A stretch of DNA of 64,000 nucleotides from Spiroplasma syrphidicola EA-1 (GTDB taxonomy: Bacteria; Bacillota_I; Bacilli_A; Mycoplasmatales; Mycoplasmataceae), in assembly GCF_000400955.1 (NCBI RefSeq), contig NC_021284.1, forward strand, positions 868,001 through 932,000, read 5' to 3'. The position numbers and the translations under genes were made by a program. Below the pieces are notes generated by a model. It saw nothing but the letters and a program-made list of their open reading frames with translations. It was not told where the DNA came from and ran no database searches. This document shows positions 3,967-48,586 of the stretch, piece by piece; positions within the stretch are counted from its first letter, which is position 1; each line of letters starts with the position of its first letter.

Positions 3967-5128
3967 GAGGGAATGACTTTCTGTATTGAACAGGGCTCAT
4001 TCCTTTTAATTTGACTTGTGGTCTAAAATTGTTGTAAAAGTAGATATATTTAGGAAGATTTTCATTAATTCATTTAGCTGTTCGTTTTTTTCTTTTTATA
4101 TGATATAAAAATTCAGTTTTCATAGTGCCAAACCATGATTCTGTGTGGGCATTATCATAAGAGTTCCCACGTCTGGACATTGAAATTCTAATTCCAAGAT
4201 AATTGCATAATTTTTCATAATCAGAATTTGTATAATGAAAACCTTGATCTGATTGCAGTACTCAAGTTGATGGTTTTCCAGCTTTTACTCAAGAATTAAT
4301 TATATTTTTAAAAACAAATTCTGTTCCTAAATTATTACTTATTTGGTAGTCCAAAATTTCATTAGTATGAAAATCTTTAACAATTTATAAAAAGTAGGTT
4401 TTATCATTTGTTAGTAAATATGTTATATCTGTTCCTAATTTTTGATTAATATCTGTGGTTGAAAAATCTTGATTCATGATATTTTCATGTCTTTTACTAC
4501 CAGAAGATAATCGATAATTAAATTTTTTGACTCTAACAATTGACTTCAAGTTCATATTCTTCATATATCTATAAACAATATGTGGTTTTAAATTTCAGTT
4601 ATATAGTTTATTGATAATTAACGTTAGCATATTATATCCATAAATTTTCTTAAAACTTAGAAATAATGTTTTAATTATTTTTGCAATTGTATTATTTCAT
4701 TTATTAAATGCTTTCATACCACTATTAAATCAATTATAATAACCAGCTCTAGAAACATTTAAAATTTTACATAAATATTTAATCTTGTATTTTTTCTTTA
4801 AGGACCAAATCGTTTGGAATTTCTTCTTTTTCGATTTGATCAAGGACTTTTTTACATCTTGAATCATTTCAATATATTCAATTAATTCTTTTTTTGTCAT
4901 TTGTTCAAAGTTAAGATCTTTTGGTCGCCCTGTTCGGCGAATCCCTTTTGATTGTGGACCTTTCCCTGGTTCTAATGCTTTTTCGCCACTAATTTTAATT
5001 GCTTTTTTTCAACGAGATAAAGTTGTTGTTGTAATTTCAAATTTTTTAATTGTTTTTGCTCAACCATGTTCCTTATAATATTTTAAAATATTAAGTTTTT
5101 CGTTTTTTGTAAATCATTTTGTTCCCAT
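3953..5128 (-). pseudogene. IS3-family transposase with an internal TAA
   Basis: Read in one frame this is 391 codons with a TAA at codon 248 (4385-4387). The N-terminal about 100 residues are the OrfA-like HTH region, including KGIRRTGRPKDL. The OrfB-like part begins around IWSLKKKYKIKYLCKILNV and SRAGYYNW. The DDE residues are readable: D in LGTDITYLL, D in VLQSDQGFHYTNSDYEK, E in NSYDNAHTESWFGTMK. The stop separates the first D from the other two, so no full catalytic domain can be made without read-through. Total length is still a multiple of three, so the only visible lesion is this nonsense codon. OrfA- and OrfB-like parts are in the same frame. Confidence 0.82.
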
Positions 5129-40121: not shown

Positions 40122-40979
40122 TTATGGAATTAAGGTTAAAGCTCCATAAAGATTAGCTTTATTATTTTTTTGACACGCTTGAAGAGTAAAAGTTTGCGAA
40201 AGCCCTAACGATTTTGTTAGTTTTTCAATTTCCTGTGATAGTAATCCCAGAAAAAAAGTATTTTCAGAAATTCCCCCTCCAATTAAAATAGTGTCAGGAT
40301 CAATTACTAATGCAAAATTAATAACCGCTTTTGCCAAGGCAAAAACCATTGCATCAATACTTGTACGAGCGTTTTGATCTTTGTCATATAAGGCAAATAA
40401 CTCATAGCCCGTCTTTTTAATTCCTGTTTTTTCATAATAGCGCATGATTGCTGAATATGTTGAACTACAGCTGGAAATATTTTTATAAATATTTCCTTGT
40501 TGTTCTGCTAGTCCGCAACCAAATTCACCGGCCATAAAATGGCTACCATGGTAAACTTGCCGATTTATGATAACAGCTCCCCCCAGGCCTGTTCCAATGA
40601 CAAACAGCAAGGCATTTTTAATATTTTGATTAATTGTTAATTCATATCAAGCAGCACAATTAGCATCATTTTCAATGTAAACGTTTCCTTTATCTTTAAA
40701 AATATCTTTTCAGTTAACTAAATGGTAATTTTTAATCGCTCCTAGTCCGGAAATTTCTCCGGTAAGAGGGTTAATAACTCCTAATGAAGAAAAGGCAATA
40801 TTTTCAATTGGATAACTAATTTGTAATTTTTGATATATTTTATTAACAATCTCGATAATTTGATCATTATCAATCAATGATTGATACTCAACTTGTCCTT
40901 CACAAATAACTGTTGTTTTATCAGAGGTAAATAATATATACTTCGTACTTAATCCCCCAATATCAAAAACTAAATTCAT
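40122..40979 (-). CDS. ROK-family sugar kinase-like protein
   Basis: A 285-residue protein with the ATPase fold: LVFDIGGLSTKYILF, YIENDANCAAWYE with the catalytic Asp, and FVIGTGLGGAVIINRQVY, then DTILIGGGISEN. The usual ROK zinc motif CxCGxxGCxE is not seen; the region reads GEFGCGLAEQQGNIYKNISS. It is the last gene of the GH38/PTS operon and its ATG directly abuts the EIIA stop. It may phosphorylate a sugar released by the mannosidase, but this is inference. Confidence 0.85.
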
Positions 40980-41438
40980 CTATTTAATCTCTATTTCACT
41001 AATTAATTTATAAACAGCTTCTTTTGATTTTGCTGATAGTAAGTTTTTACAAAACTCTTGGTCAACTAATTTTCGAGCAACTGAAGATAAAATTTTAATA
41101 TGTTCACTTCCTGAATTAGTTTCTGGAATTGCTAAAGCGATTGCCAATTTAACTTTTGAATCATCAATTGATTTTCATTCAATTCCATCTTTAAATAAGA
41201 ACACAAATAATCCCGGGCGACTAATTTCTTTAATTCGCGCATGAGGAATAGCTATCCCATCATTGAAACCTGTTGTTCCTTCTTTTTCCCGTTTTACTAA
41301 TCCTTTAAAACATTTTTTTAAATTGTCACTAACACCATTTTCAACAAAAGCGTTAGCAATAAATGTAAAAGCTTCTTTTTGAGTTTTGCAATCTACATCA
41401 AAATAGATATGGTTTAAATTAAATAATTCTTTTTGCAT
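40980..41438 (-). CDS. PTS EIIA, fructose/mannitol type
   Basis: A 152-residue EIIA domain. The active His lies in GIAIPHARI, preceded by EGTTGFNDG. It takes phosphate from HPr and passes it to EIIB. The protein is separate here; the matching EIIBC is encoded two genes upstream at 44136-45983. The gene starts inside the end of the mannosidase gene (20-base overlap). Confidence 0.92.
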
Positions 41439-44118
41439 TGTTTCTCTCCTCTTTTAAAATGATTTCATATGTTTGAATTTGATATTTTTTTAGTGAATCA
41501 TTTTTAATATTAGTTTCGCTTTCTTTTTCCAATAAATTAACCTTATTAATTTGTTGAATTTTTTCTGGTAAATTCTCAAAAGAAAACTTAATTTCCGTAC
41601 AACTAGCATTAAAACCTCGGACAATTATTGCGTTATTTCGTTCGGATTTTTTAACGGCTTTAATTACAAAATTTGGATTTTCAAATAATTTTAAATCACA
41701 CTCTCTTGCTAAATCAAGTTCTTCTAAATTAGCTAGTAAAAACCGATCAGCATGTTGGTATACTGAATTATAACTTTGTTGTTGGTAAAATAGCACTGGC
41801 GTATTTTCCTGTTCAGCTTTATTTCAAAGATTATTATCTGTTGAAACAAATCATTGTAAATTAAAGGTTAAAGTTGTCAATAACTGCGCATCTGGGGTAT
41901 TAACTGCAATTTCGTTAACACCCGATGCTCGTCCTGGCCGATTAATCAAATTATTTCGACCTAAGAAGGGAACTGAACGGAATAAGGTAATTCATAGTGT
42001 TGAATAATGATCATCATTAACTACTTCATATTCATTATTACCCCGTGTCAAATATCCCACTTTGATTATATCATCTGTTAAATAAACAAATGATTCATTT
42101 GTTTCAATTGCCACCGGTTTTTCTTTTCACTGTTCTTTTTCCCAATTTTTTAAATCTTCCCTTAAAATAACTGGTCTTTCAATTGTTCCATAAGCTTGAT
42201 TTGCATAAGAATTATTTGTTATAAATGGTGCAGTGGCGTTGATTCGTCAACGAATTTCTCGAGCGACATTTTTTGTTGTAATTTCTAGTTCAATAAAGTC
42301 AGTATTATTAATTGCAAATTTCAATTCAAATTGCTGTTTTATCATTTTCCCTTGTTCATGACTAGGGACTAAATATGTATTATTTAAAACAAGTTGATAA
42401 TAATCTTGGTATTGTTGAAAGTCATACTTTGTTTTGAAAAGTTGACTAACTGGTCCTGGTTGTTGACGAGATGGGGAATAATCATAAGAATCGCCCATAT
42501 CATGATCTGCTTCTAATAAAAATTGTTTTTGATAAAGTCTCTTTGTTTTCAAATCATAAATATCTAAACTTCCATCGGGATTAATTGTAAATTCTCAATG
42601 ATTTGTTTTAAGTGTTGCTGCGTTACCCAAACGATTATGATAATTTGGTGCCTTTGTAATTTTAAATTTACTAATTGTAAATAACGGCAAATTAAGGTCT
42701 AATAATAGTACTTTATTTTGATAAAATCCTTCTCTTAAGACATGTTTTTCACCATTATTTGTTGCCACAACATCATAGCCCCCATCACAGTAATTTTGTT
42801 CTAATAAGACAAAATTAACTGGCTCATTGGTTGTATGATTAATTGCAAATTTTTTAGTTTTAGTAAATAATGCAACCTCATAGTGTTGCTTATTTTGGTT
42901 TTCCGTAATTCTCGGATTAAAAACTAAAAACTCTTCATTTTTTAACTGGTGATAATAACTATAGGTTTTTAGTAATTTTGTTATTGAACTGGCAATTAAA
43001 TCATTGGCCCGATCAAGACGATTTGCAATATCCCGGTTAGTTTCATCACTATTGCAGCCCCCTAATGAATCATGGGCTTGTGATGTTGTTAATAATTTTA
43101 AAACCTCACGAATTAATTCAGCAGGATAAGTTCCTCCCATCATATGGTAATAAGTTGCTAATGGTTCAAAAGCATTATATAAACGATATTCAACCGCCTT
43201 AGTTTTAATTTTAAGATCAACACGTTGTGAACCAATTGTTTTATGAACTCTAGCAAAAGCTGGGGATTTTAACTCCCCCTTAACTGTTGCTAAATTAGTA
43301 AATTGATTATCAGCAAAATATTCATCGTAATCTGCTAATTTTCAGGCATGTTCTTGGTCCAAATCATTTAGTTTATCAATGAATTCAGCTAATAGTTTTG
43401 AAATTGGGGCTTGGTCACCCCCAAAAGGTAATAAGATATTATTTGTTACTTTTGTTTTTGCTTTTAGCGTATTTAAAATATCGCTAAAACTTGTTAAAAA
43501 TAACTGTGCTTCGGTCGCAAGATTTTCATTTGTTAGTCTTTGATATGGAAAATGACTTCCCATTACTCAGTAACCAAAATAGAAATTGTAAGCGAGAATT
43601 TTTGTCCCATCAAGCCCTTCCCATCAGTGGATAGTTCCCTCTTCAAGGTCAGCTGGACGGGCTCCGCGCCAATAAATAAATTGATCTAAGCCAAACTGGC
43701 GATAAATTTGGGGCATTTGTGAAGTATGCCCAAATGAATCTGGGACATAAGCTGTTGTTAAATATTGGCCATGATAATTTTCAACTAACGTAATCCCTAA
43801 TAATAAATTCCGAACAATTGATTCAGATGTTAAATTAAAGAAATCTGGTTGGGTATATCACGGTCCAACAATTAATTTTTTGGTAGCTAACGCTTTAAAT
43901 AAAATAGCGTTATTATCATCTTTAAAATACGTTAGATAATCTTCAATGATTGATGTTTGCCCATCATATGTAAAACTAAAACAATTCGGATTCTGACGAT
44001 ATAACTTTAAATATTCTAATAAATTAGCCGATAAAAAGACATCTGAATCTTGTTTTGTAAAATATCATTCTTTATCTCAGTGTGTATGTGGTACAACGGT
44101 AATTGTTCATTTCTTCAT
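41419..44118 (-). CDS. GH38 alpha-mannosidase, MngB-like
   Basis: An 899-residue glycoside hydrolase family 38 enzyme, close in length to E. coli mannosylglycerate hydrolase MngB. The N-terminal motif VVPHTHWDKEWY holds zinc ligands; the nucleophile Asp is in YVPDSFGHTSQ; a later block SQAHDSLGGCNSDE holds further active-site residues. Trp residues of the first motif are TGA-coded. No signal peptide, so it is cytosolic, as for enzymes that cut PTS-imported phosphorylated mannosides. It lies between EIIBC and EIIA genes. The exact substrate is inferred from context. Confidence 0.9.
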
Positions 44119-44135
44119 TTTGTCATATCCTATTC

Positions 44136-45983
44136 TTAATCTTTTTTAATTTTAACACCAACAACTGACGGATCTTTTTTATTTTTTTTACGACGGAATA
44201 AATTAGTAAAGGAAATTCATCCTCTTTGAATTGAATAGCCTCAATCAACAAAGTAATTTTTAATTCCTGTTCCAATTCAAATTCAATATTCTTTTGTACT
44301 TTTAATTCGATTATGCCAAGTTCTTTTGAATCAATGATTCATTTTTTTCCCAGCTAATTTTGGTTTTGTAAATAATAATTTTAAATTGTTTTTCGCATTT
44401 TTGCGGGCTATTTTACGTGATAATTTTTCTTCTTTTAATAATTGCGCTTCTTCCCCTTTGATTTTTGGTTTCAGTAACCCTGCAATGACAGCTGTTGTTA
44501 CTACTCCAGCTAGAATAGCTAAAAGTCATGCCATTGGTCAAAATGGAGCTGAATTCTGTTGAATATATCCTAGGAAAGTTCCCAACGGTGATCCTAAACC
44601 AGCCGCGAATTTAACATCTCACAATGTTACAAGAATCGCTGCTACAACCGAACCAGCAATATTGGCCGGAATAATACGAATTGGATCAGCAGCAGCAAAT
44701 GGAATTGCTCCTTCTGTAATCCCAACCATTCCTGTTCCAAAAGCGGCTTTCCCCATAATTCTTTGATTTTTTGGGTAGCGATTTTTAAAGATAATAGTTG
44801 ATAATCACATTCCTAGTGGTGGTACCGAAATTGCGGCTTGGGTTGCTGTTCCAGGAATAAAGTTTGCATCCCAGAATGTTTTCCCTTCCGCCATTGCTTG
44901 CGCTAATGTTTGATAGAAAATAACTGTCCCAAACACTAAAGCAGTTTTATTTAATGGCCCTCCTAGATCAAAGGCAATCATTATCGCAACAACAATCGCA
45001 ATAATTATTCCTGTTGAAGCAAATTTTTCTTGTAAAGCACTTAAGCCATCAAACATTCCTAATACTAAACCGGCAATTGGTGCTCCAATCACAAATTTAA
45101 CAAAAGTTGCCATAATAAATGTTGCTAAAATTGGAATAATCATTAATGGGACAATTGGTTGTAAAACTTTTGGTCAACGAATAATTTTTAATAATTGAAC
45201 TAAGTATCCACTTAAAAGTCCAACAACAATTGCGCCAATAAAACCAGCTCCTGGTTCAATTGGAGAATTAGTTGTTCCAACTGTTACATCAATTCCTAAC
45301 ATTTTATTATCATTAATAATTCATCCAGCAATCATTGCTGGGGCTAATCCGGGTTTATCGGCAATTGAATAAGCCGTAAACCCTGCAAATAATGGAATCA
45401 TTAGTTTAAACCCTAAGGCTCCAACATCCATCATAAATTGGGGTAGTTTTCTTGTTCCCAATACTCAGTTTTGGCCATAATCCCCATAGTTATCGACATA
45501 TTCAGTTTGGAAAGCACATAGATTAGCAATCGCCATTAGAATCCCTGCCGCAATTGTCATTGGAATCATTCATGAAATTCCAGTCATCAAGTGCGATAGC
45601 ATTCCTCGTTTTTTTGTTGTTCCAAAAGTAACAGCCCCCACTTTTGTTCCTTTTTTCCCGTGAATTGTTCCTTGTTCTAAAGCTGTATCAATTAATTGGG
45701 CTGGATTTTTAATGGCAAAATTAACTCCTGTTTTAAAAAGTTTTTTATCATTAAAACGCGATAAATCAATTTTGACATCAGCAGCAATAATAACAAGATC
45801 CGCTTGGGCAATTTGTTCAGCGGTTAAAACATTTTCCGCCCCAATTGTTCCTTGCGTTTCAACATTAATTTCAAAACCCTTTTCACTGGCGGCTTTTTTT
45901 AAACTATCAGCTGCCATATAAGTATGAGCAACACCCGCCGCACAGGCAGTAATTGCTACAATTTTTATTTTATCTGTTGTCAT
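44136..45983 (-). CDS. PTS EIIBC, fructose family
   Basis: A 615-residue protein. The N-terminal about 110 residues form the fructose-type EIIB with the phospho-Cys in AITACAAGVAHTYMAAD. A linker leads to EIIC of about 370 residues with KPGLAPAMIAG, GFIGAIVVGLLSG, LGGPLNKTA and MVGITEGAIPFAAADP. A basic soluble tail of about 110 residues with many TGA-coded Trp (KEYWIWIGTGIK and so on) follows and is unusual for the family. No EIIA is fused. The set EIIBC, GH38, EIIA suggests uptake of an alpha-mannoside. Confidence 0.92.
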
Positions 45984-46000
45984 TTTTTGTCTCCTTTCTA

Positions 46001-46795
46001 CTAACTACTAAAATCAAAATCAAGGTAAAACTTAACTGGGTCATAGCCAAATTTGGCAATTGGAGAAAATGATACTAAAAATCTTATAGTATATATTTGT
46101 GATGATTCTTTTTGATATGGTTTTACTACTGTAGTAATATTATTTTTATCATCCAAATTAAAGATTTTGCCATTTGATCAAAGTTTTTGAATATTTAAAT
46201 ATGAATAGTTTTCCCCCTGACCAGAGTCAGTCTGTTGGTTATCATTTTTAAAGCGAACAATGTTGTTATCACCATTTGTTCATTTAAAATCTTCCATTGT
46301 ATTACTATCATCTTGGTAATCAAAAATCCATTTTTCGTCTGGATCGGCTCCTACTTGTGCCGCTTTAAAATTTGCTATTCTTGTTGTAAAATAGTAACTT
46401 TGAAATAAGCTAGCATCAATATTGTTGTTTTGATAAAAACTATCTTCTTCACCTGTTAATGTTTTTTGTTCTTTGACATTTGTTGTAATATAATTGCTAG
46501 CAAGATTAGTAATGGCATCGGAAGCAGTTCGCGCATGCGCAATTGAATCTTGCTGAGTTGGGTCTTCTAAATCACTAACGGCTGGTTTTGGCATTGGAAA
46601 CGCCCCAATTGTCCCAGGATTAGTAATTTCTCCGGCTGAGGATGTTTGATATCCCGCTTGCTCTTGCAAACGATTCATTATTTGATAAATTGTTTCAACA
46701 TTTAAAGGTGGTGTTCCTCATGAACACGCAATTAAAGTTGTTGCAGTTGTATTAAGTAAAGTAACCATTGGCAAGACTAAAAGTAATTTTCGCAT
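46001..46795 (-). CDS. Lipoprotein at the head of the GH38/PTS operon
   Basis: A 264-residue lipoprotein: signal MRKLLLVLPMVTLLNTT and lipobox TLIAC, giving lipidated Cys24. The mature part is hydrophilic with TSSAGEITNPGTIGAFPMPK and no recognised family. GGAGGCAACATT precedes the ATG. It ends 17 bases before the EIIBC gene, so it belongs to the same operon. It may bind the substrate at the surface; this is inference. Confidence 0.8.
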
Positions 46796-46855
46796 AATGT
46801 TGCCTCCTTTCATATTTCCATTTTAACTTATTAGAATAATTTAAAAAAGAAAAAT

Positions 46856-46886
46856 AAAAAAAATGGAATAAGATTCCATTTTTTTT
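46856..46886 (-). terminator. Terminator of the RpiR-type gene
   Basis: Arms AAAAAAAATGGAAT and ATTCCATTTTTTTT pair perfectly around a short loop, overlapping the regulator's stop codon. Confidence 0.85.
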
Positions 46887-47757
46887 ATTTTTCAATCCTT
46901 TTATTGTCATGTCAGCTATTCATTTCTTGTAAAAAACTATCTTTTGCATCAATTAGTTTTTTATTTTTAATATAAAAAAGATTTTTCAAATAATCGGTAA
47001 AGAAGAGAAAACTTCATAATGGGGAAAAAATTAAATTATCCTCTAAATCATCAATCCGACGAATTTGATTATCAATAAAAATTGATAAATTAGTATATTT
47101 ATTTAATTCTGAATTTAAATTGCTTGTTATTAAAACAACTTGGCCAGGAATTCGTTCTCTTCTAATTAACTTTAATAATTGTAAGTGAAAGTCATTTAGC
47201 CCTCGCATTGAAAAAATGATTAAAATATCATCTTTTGTCATTGATGATATTGTTTTAGTAATATTTTTCCCCCGCTCTAAAATTTGAGTTACCAAACCAA
47301 AATGCGTTAACATTCCGCATAAATCTGTTAGCGCAATTAAGCTATGGCCGGCCCCAAAGGCATAAATTTTTTTGGCTTGCGATAAAATCGCAACTAATTC
47401 GTCAAATTTTGCTTGCTGATCTTGAAACATCACAACATTAATATTATTCGAAACTTGATAATTATCTTGAATTAATGTTAGTACTTGTGAATTACAACCA
47501 TTTTTATCATTTTTTTTGGTAATTAAACTAACACCATGTAAAATCCCTAATTTATAAATATATTCTTTTAAGCCTGAAACATTTAATTTTTTAAAAAACC
47601 CATAAATAAAACTCATCCCAACGCCATATTTTTGGCTTAAAGTCTGAAGATTTGAATTAATTAAAAAATCATAGTTATTAATTGTAAAATAATAAAAATC
47701 CAATTCCCGACCGGCTAACATGCTTAAATCTAAAAAAACATCCTTATTTGAATCCAT
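46885..47757 (-). CDS. MurR/RpiR-family transcriptional regulator
   Basis: A 290-residue protein with an N-terminal HTH (SNLQTLSQKYGVGMSFIYGF) and a SIS domain (KKIYAFGAGHSLIALTD, DDILIIFSMRGLND). It is more divergent than the regulator at 3069-3911; its SIS loop reads FSMRG in place of FSRSG. It is upstream of the lipoprotein-PTS-GH38 genes on the same strand but separated from them by a terminator. It probably senses a phosphosugar from that pathway. Confidence 0.8.
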
Positions 47758-48018: not shown

Positions 48019-48103
48019 TGGTCCGGGTTAAGGGACTTGAACCCCCACGAGTTACCCCGCCAGATCCTAAGTCTGGTGCGTCTGCCAATTCCGCCAAACC
48101 CGG
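48019..48103 (-). tRNA. tRNA-Leu(UAG)
   Basis: An 85-base class II tRNA with a long variable arm. Acceptor CCGGGTT/AACCCGG, anticodon loop CTTAGGA, T-loop GTTCAAGTC, encoded CCA. Last of the six tRNAs. Confidence 0.95.
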
Positions 48104-48122
48104 AGAATCTTTTTTTATAAAA

Positions 48123-48199
48123 TGGTCTCCTGTGCAGGACTTGAACCTACGACCTACTGGTTAAAAGCCAGCAGCTCTACCGACTGAGCTAACAGGAGA
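48123..48199 (-). tRNA. tRNA-Lys(UUU)
   Basis: Acceptor TCTCCTG/CAGGAGA, anticodon loop CTTTTAA, encoded CCA. The usual D- and T-arm signatures are present. Confidence 0.95.
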
Positions 48200-48235
48200 T
48201 AGTATTTTTGCTAATTTTAATTTTTAATTTTTTAA

Positions 48236-48313
<78 letters not shown>

Positions 48314-48326
48314 TTAAAATAAAAAA

Positions 48327-48402
48327 TGGTCGGGTGTAACGGACTTGAACCGCTGACCACCTGCTTGTAAGGCAGACGCTCTCCCAACTGAGCTAACACC
48401 CG
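48327..48402 (-). tRNA. tRNA-Val(UAC)
   Basis: Acceptor CGGGTGT/ACACCCG, anticodon loop CTTACAA, encoded CCA. Confidence 0.95.
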
Positions 48403-48406
48403 AAAA

Positions 48407-48482
48407 TGGTGACCTGTACGGGGTTTGAACCCGTGAATGCATGCGTGAAAGGCATGTGTGTTAACCGCTTCACCAACAGGCC
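48407..48482 (-). tRNA. tRNA-Glu(UUC)
   Basis: Acceptor GGCCTGT/ACAGGTC, anticodon loop CTTTCAC, encoded CCA. Only four bases separate it from tRNA-Val. Confidence 0.95.
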
Positions 48483-48509
48483 GGATAAAATTTTTGTCAA
48501 AAAAAATAA

Positions 48510-48586
48510 TGGCGCCTAGTGTAGGGCTCGAACCTACGACCTGCCGGTTAACAGCCGGATGCTCTGCCAACTGAGCTAACTAGGCA
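48510..48586 (-). tRNA. tRNA-Asn(GUU)
   Basis: Acceptor TGCCTAG/CTAGGCG, anticodon loop CTGTTAA, encoded CCA. First gene of the tRNA operon. Confidence 0.95.

Follow-up and report, generated by a model that had tools for sequence, protein, structure and literature searches.

The six genes at positions 40122-47757 of the analysed window, a stretch of 64,000 nucleotides from Spiroplasma syrphidicola EA-1, probably serve as an operon for the breakdown of a short alpha-mannoside, the other half of which is probably a sugar, an interpretation that assigns roles to the regulator, the lipoprotein and the ROK kinase as well. A PTS-fed pathway through a 6-phospho-alpha-mannosidase is well supported by gene context and conserved residues. 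All six open reading frames lie on the minus strand when read with genetic code 4 and encode, in transcript order, an RpiR/SIS regulator, a lipoprotein, a fructose-type EIIBC, a GH38 enzyme, an EIIA and a ROK kinase (Table 1), which bears out the gene content, order and coordinates given in an earlier sequence-only reading of this DNA. From the lipoprotein gene to the ROK gene packing is tight, with successive gaps of 17 bp and 17 bp, an overlap of 20 bp and a gap of 0 bp, and GH38, EIIB, EIIC, EIIA and ROK all score well above their Pfam or NCBIfam cut-offs. Literature searches found no earlier report of the operon in Spiroplasma. Just upstream, at 48019-48585 of the window, six tRNA genes (Leu, Lys, Thr, Val, Glu, Asn) are clustered.

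Table 1. Features of the alpha-mannoside operon, in transcript order (positions refer to the window).
Feature	Position	Strand	Length	Remarks
MurR/RpiR-type regulator	46885-47757	-	290 aa	PF01380 SIS domain
Palindrome TGGAAT-N3-ATTCCA	46864-46878			Core of hairpin 46849-46893; probable operator
Surface lipoprotein	46001-46813 (as called)	-	270 aa	Start at 46795 favoured (264 aa)
Fructose-type PTS EIIBC permease	44136-45983	-	615 aa	TIGR00829, TIGR01427
GH38 alpha-mannosidase	41419-44118	-	899 aa	PF01074
Fructose-type PTS EIIA	40980-41438	-	152 aa	TIGR00848, PF00359
ROK-family sugar kinase	40122-40979	-	285 aa	PF00480

The hydrolase, whose reading frame requires 13 TGA codons to be read as tryptophan, matches PF01074 with 111.1 bits (cut-off 25) and also PF17677 and PF09261. 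The zinc-binding and catalytic residues of the streptococcal enzyme SpGH38 are H13, D15, D125, D232 and H351 (PMC2815779), and the alignment provides counterparts for all of them in the Spiroplasma protein (H13, D15, D127, D235 and H349). The domain score together with the intact zinc, nucleophile and acid-base residues places the protein in glycoside hydrolase family 38. In size it is close to Escherichia coli MngB (877 aa), so that the equal length pointed out earlier holds.

An indication of how the substrate reaches this enzyme comes from a short motif, R290-x-H292-K293. In a comparison of 70 GH38 proteins classified by their neighbouring genes, all 54 with EII genes nearby have [RK]-x-H at positions 290-292. 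A further 8 share it for which no EII gene was detected but which branch among the PTS-linked ones in the tree, and it is absent from a clade of 8 proteins that is tied to ABC transporters or has no PTS genes, a distribution that tracks, in essence, a single deep split of the tree. In most proteins with the motif the next residue is K or R. The aligned GH38 enzymes of Enterococcus faecalis (5kbp, 3lvt) are without R-x-H. The motif tells GH38 enzymes that are linked to a PTS apart from those that are not, and the Spiroplasma protein, which carries it and is encoded next to EII genes, belongs to the former. As [RK]-x-H is common to the PTS-linked enzymes, it points indirectly to a substrate that is already phosphorylated when it reaches the enzyme. 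The Spiroplasma enzyme is therefore best described as a probable 6-phospho-alpha-mannosidase, and the proposal that an alpha-mannoside is imported by the PTS and its phosphorylated product then cleaved by GH38 is supported by motif, domains and context alike.

The transporter itself is of the fructose family, as EIIA, EIIB and EIIC each exceed the cut-off of a subfamily model: EIIA scores 116.1 bits against TIGR00848 (cut-off 103.5), besides 136 bits against PF00359, and has the phospho-histidine site IPHAR, while EIIBC scores 111.3 bits against TIGR00829 (cut-off 76.85) and 236.1 bits against TIGR01427 (cut-off 157.55), with Cys14 in EIIB and the motif GITEGAIPFA. Beyond EIIC the permease continues in a basic C-terminal extension of about 110 residues (515-615), which is present in all orthologues and poorly conserved towards its end. 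A second fructose-type EIIBC of the same genome (L132, 5081-6718) directly follows a gene for ManA (4073-4981), and the pair probably serves to take up mannose or fructose.

Pfam and NCBIfam searches assign the lipoprotein to no known family, and it has no sequence relative in the PDB; its predicted structure is weak (mean pLDDT 60.9), and a Foldseek comparison of this model with the PDB matched nothing (best E 0.17). A start at 46795 is favoured by a GGAGG ribosome site and the lipobox L-I-A-C, and homologues retain C-[SD]-W-x-x-P-P. Full-length homologues occur in exactly 10 of 148 genomes, and these are the same ten that possess an EIIBC orthologue (at least 64% identity, the next matches dropping sharply to 45%), so that the two proteins constitute a strict pair. 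They evolve at very different rates: the lipoprotein diverges fast (24-52% identity outside S. chrysopicola), and EIIBC slowly (61-82%). Because of this pairing across genomes we favour a role in capture or docking, or as an accessory of the PTS, and the lipoprotein is probably a PTS accessory or substrate-binding protein. That it is a fast-evolving surface protein acting as the dedicated extracellular alpha-mannoside-binding partner of EIIBC is a more tentative suggestion, one that we consider possible but would not yet prefer. Extracellular substrate-binding partners are normally associated with ABC transporters, and the operon offers an example, open to experiment, in which a lipoprotein on the cell surface may work with a PTS permease.

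The regulator gene adjoins the operon in orthologous loci, and its product owes the RpiR label to a match with the SIS domain PF01380 at 28.8 bits (cut-off 25); HTH_6 was detected in 5 of 11 RpiR-like neighbours that were compared, the regulator in the window not being one of them. It is probably a phosphosugar-sensing MurR/RpiR-type regulator of the operon. The hairpin at 46849-46893, previously described as a terminator following the regulator gene, is a real inverted repeat and contains TGGAATCTTATTCCA. Among ten orthologous operons, nine have its core palindrome about 60-71 bp before the start of the lipoprotein gene, differing at 0-2 positions; the tenth, G015, has 3 mismatches. Exact copies number 6 in 31 mollicute stretches, some of which overlap, whereas 89 permuted half-sites average 0.11 copies. 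In four operons the palindrome is retained even though the regulator is transcribed divergently. A function as terminator alone can for this reason be rejected, and an operator, probably that of the RpiR protein, is the better reading, although the A/T-tract flanks of the hairpin in this genome could also terminate transcription. The genome has no exact copy besides the one in the window, and a wider regulon search of the genome found one-mismatch sites to be no commoner than in the control.

The operon is conserved in related spiroplasmas, a point that the earlier reading had proposed to check. Of 149 genomes in a search of relatives, 20 gave a GH38 match, and 15 of these 20 belong to the same family as S. 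syrphidicola, so that the expectation of a pathway unusual for mollicutes holds only in part. Gene maps were drawn for 31 mollicute stretches and for loci from other bacteria. The full set of regulator, lipoprotein, EIIBC, GH38, EIIA and ROK genes is found in six genomes (G000, G007, G005, G015, G059 and G046); G054 has the set without an adjacent ROK gene, and in G024, G031 and G056 it is rearranged or partial. No ROK gene lies beside the others in G054, G024, G031 or the L043 locus of G056, and the kinase is accordingly not obligatory. Two further variations concern GH38 itself. In G024, G031 and S. sabaudiense (L063, L065 and L066) there is a tandem pair of GH38 genes from different subclades, with a very divergent EII, which may reflect two linkage specificities served by one transporter. 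In G020 the GH38 gene (L060, 13992-16718) is split into open frames of 98 and 799 aa and is probably decaying.

The ROK protein scores 105 bits against PF00480 (cut-off 22.9), and no substrate-specific model reaches its cut-off. It is BglK-like, without the Cys-rich zinc motif, and its best relatives of solved structure are 2gup, a ROK protein, and 4htl, a beta-glucoside kinase. Mannose-6-phosphate isomerase (ManA) is encoded elsewhere in the genome, at G000:C1:100072, where it was found with PF20511 (PF01238 gave no match). Two classes of glycerate kinase were searched for, PF02595 (GarK-type) and PF13660 (DUF4147/MOFRL-type), and both are absent from the genome. A sugar kinase in the operon, the absence of these two classes and the presence of ManA are the reasons why we favour an alpha-mannosyl-sugar as substrate, its second half probably being a sugar as in mannobiose or mannosyl-glucose. 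Such a mannoside would be captured outside the cell with the help of the lipoprotein and imported by EIIA and EIIBC with phosphorylation at C6 of the terminal mannose. GH38 would then release mannose-6-phosphate and the free second sugar; ManA would convert the former to fructose-6-phosphate, and the ROK kinase would phosphorylate the latter, so that both halves could enter glycolysis. The RpiR/SIS regulator is envisaged to sense a sugar phosphate and to act on the operon via TGGAAT-N3-ATTCCA. For insect-associated mollicutes this is probably an extra carbon source.

The sequence-only reading had likened the operon to MngAB and proposed as its substrate a mannosylated compatible solute or similar mannoside. 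In a true mannosylglycerate pathway GH38 would release mannose-6-phosphate and glycerate, the latter being excreted or used by some other class of kinase. The sole NCBIfam match of the hydrolase is indeed the mannosylglycerate hydrolase model NF007331, over its full length, and identity to E. coli MngB is 29% over 883 columns. However, the score of 615.8 bits is below the equivalog cut-off of 1138, and EIIBC reaches only 243 bits of the 763 required by the MngA equivalog NF007293. In the trees, the mollicute GH38 proteins form one supported clade apart from that of MngB (with members from E. coli, Neobacillus, Exiguobacterium and a Rhodospirillaceae MAG), and EIIBC is placed outside the MngA clade. 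The AU test rejects a single clade of mollicute GH38 and MngB (p=0.0003; 5e-7 for subclade A with MngB), so the phylogeny that was to decide the matter groups the enzyme with non-MngB proteins, and the MngB-specific part of the claim fails while the phospho-mannoside part survives. Glycerate kinase genes do adjoin GH38 genes in Exiguobacterium (MngB clade), in the more distant Listeria and in others, and the nearest non-mollicute GH38 clade includes enzymes of Listeria and G174 with such kinases in their loci; in S. syrphidicola, by contrast, the two classes searched for are missing, the regulator is RpiR and not GntR, EIIA is a separate protein, and a ROK kinase would be left without a substrate. 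Mannosylglycerate as the substrate is thus unsupported, we regard a true MngAB-type pathway as improbable, and the name "mannosylglycerate hydrolase", a likely outcome of automatic annotation, is corrected by the present interpretation. In three loci from other bacteria (L140 on Listeria plasmid 3, L105 in G174 and L131 in Vibrio) PTS and GH38 genes adjoin a gene for a GH13-type sugar phosphorylase, the first two also having the glycerate kinase; these gene sets would fit uptake of mannosylglucosylglycerate better than of mannosylglycerate.

About equally unlikely, in our opinion, is the salvage of glycan fragments, where an oligosaccharide of host or yeast origin, such as Man-alpha-Man-beta-GlcNAc, would be attacked first by GH38, after which a GH1 enzyme and the ROK kinase would act. 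GH1 genes do lie close by in G059, G046, G015 and the Enterococcus loci, the S. syrphidicola GH1 is 49% identical to that of Enterococcus, and 2gup is, as we assume, the ROK protein of the N-glycan locus of Streptococcus pneumoniae. But the S. syrphidicola GH1 gene is located elsewhere in the genome and not in the operon, mollicute GH1 enzymes usually serve beta-glucosides, and transport of a trisaccharide by a fructose-type PTS is not established here. It is very unlikely that the genes are mere neighbours, with EIIBC and EIIA carrying fructose or mannose and GH38 acting on free, unphosphorylated mannosides within the cell: both PTS proteins score best with fructose-type models, yet GH38, EIIBC, EIIA and the lipoprotein are kept together in many genomes and GH38 bears the motif of PTS-linked enzymes. 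A single pathway for a phosphorylated alpha-mannosyl-sugar remains our preferred interpretation.

Three known systems come closest to the operon. In mngRAB of E. coli a fructose-family EII likewise adjoins a GH38 of the same size, with the same active site and an R-x-H-[KR] motif; however, MngA is a single IIABC protein, MngR is of the GntR type, lipoprotein and ROK kinase are lacking, GH38 and EII belong to other clades, and the product is glycerate. Streptococcus SpGH38 (PMC2815779) and the pneumococcal N-glycan locus (PMC5215778) resemble the Spiroplasma operon in a GH38 alpha-mannosidase with the same catalytic residues and, in the pneumococcal locus, a ROK kinase, but the pneumococcal pathway uses an ABC transporter where Spiroplasma has a PTS. 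A plasmid locus of Enterococcus raffinosus and E. hirae, for the substrate of which our literature search found no report, has the order EIIBC-EIIA-GH38-RpiR-GH1-ROK; it includes a GH1 in the operon, has no lipoprotein and contains a GH38 of another clade, while sharing with Spiroplasma the RpiR regulator, an EIIBC with separate EIIA, a GH38 and a ROK kinase.
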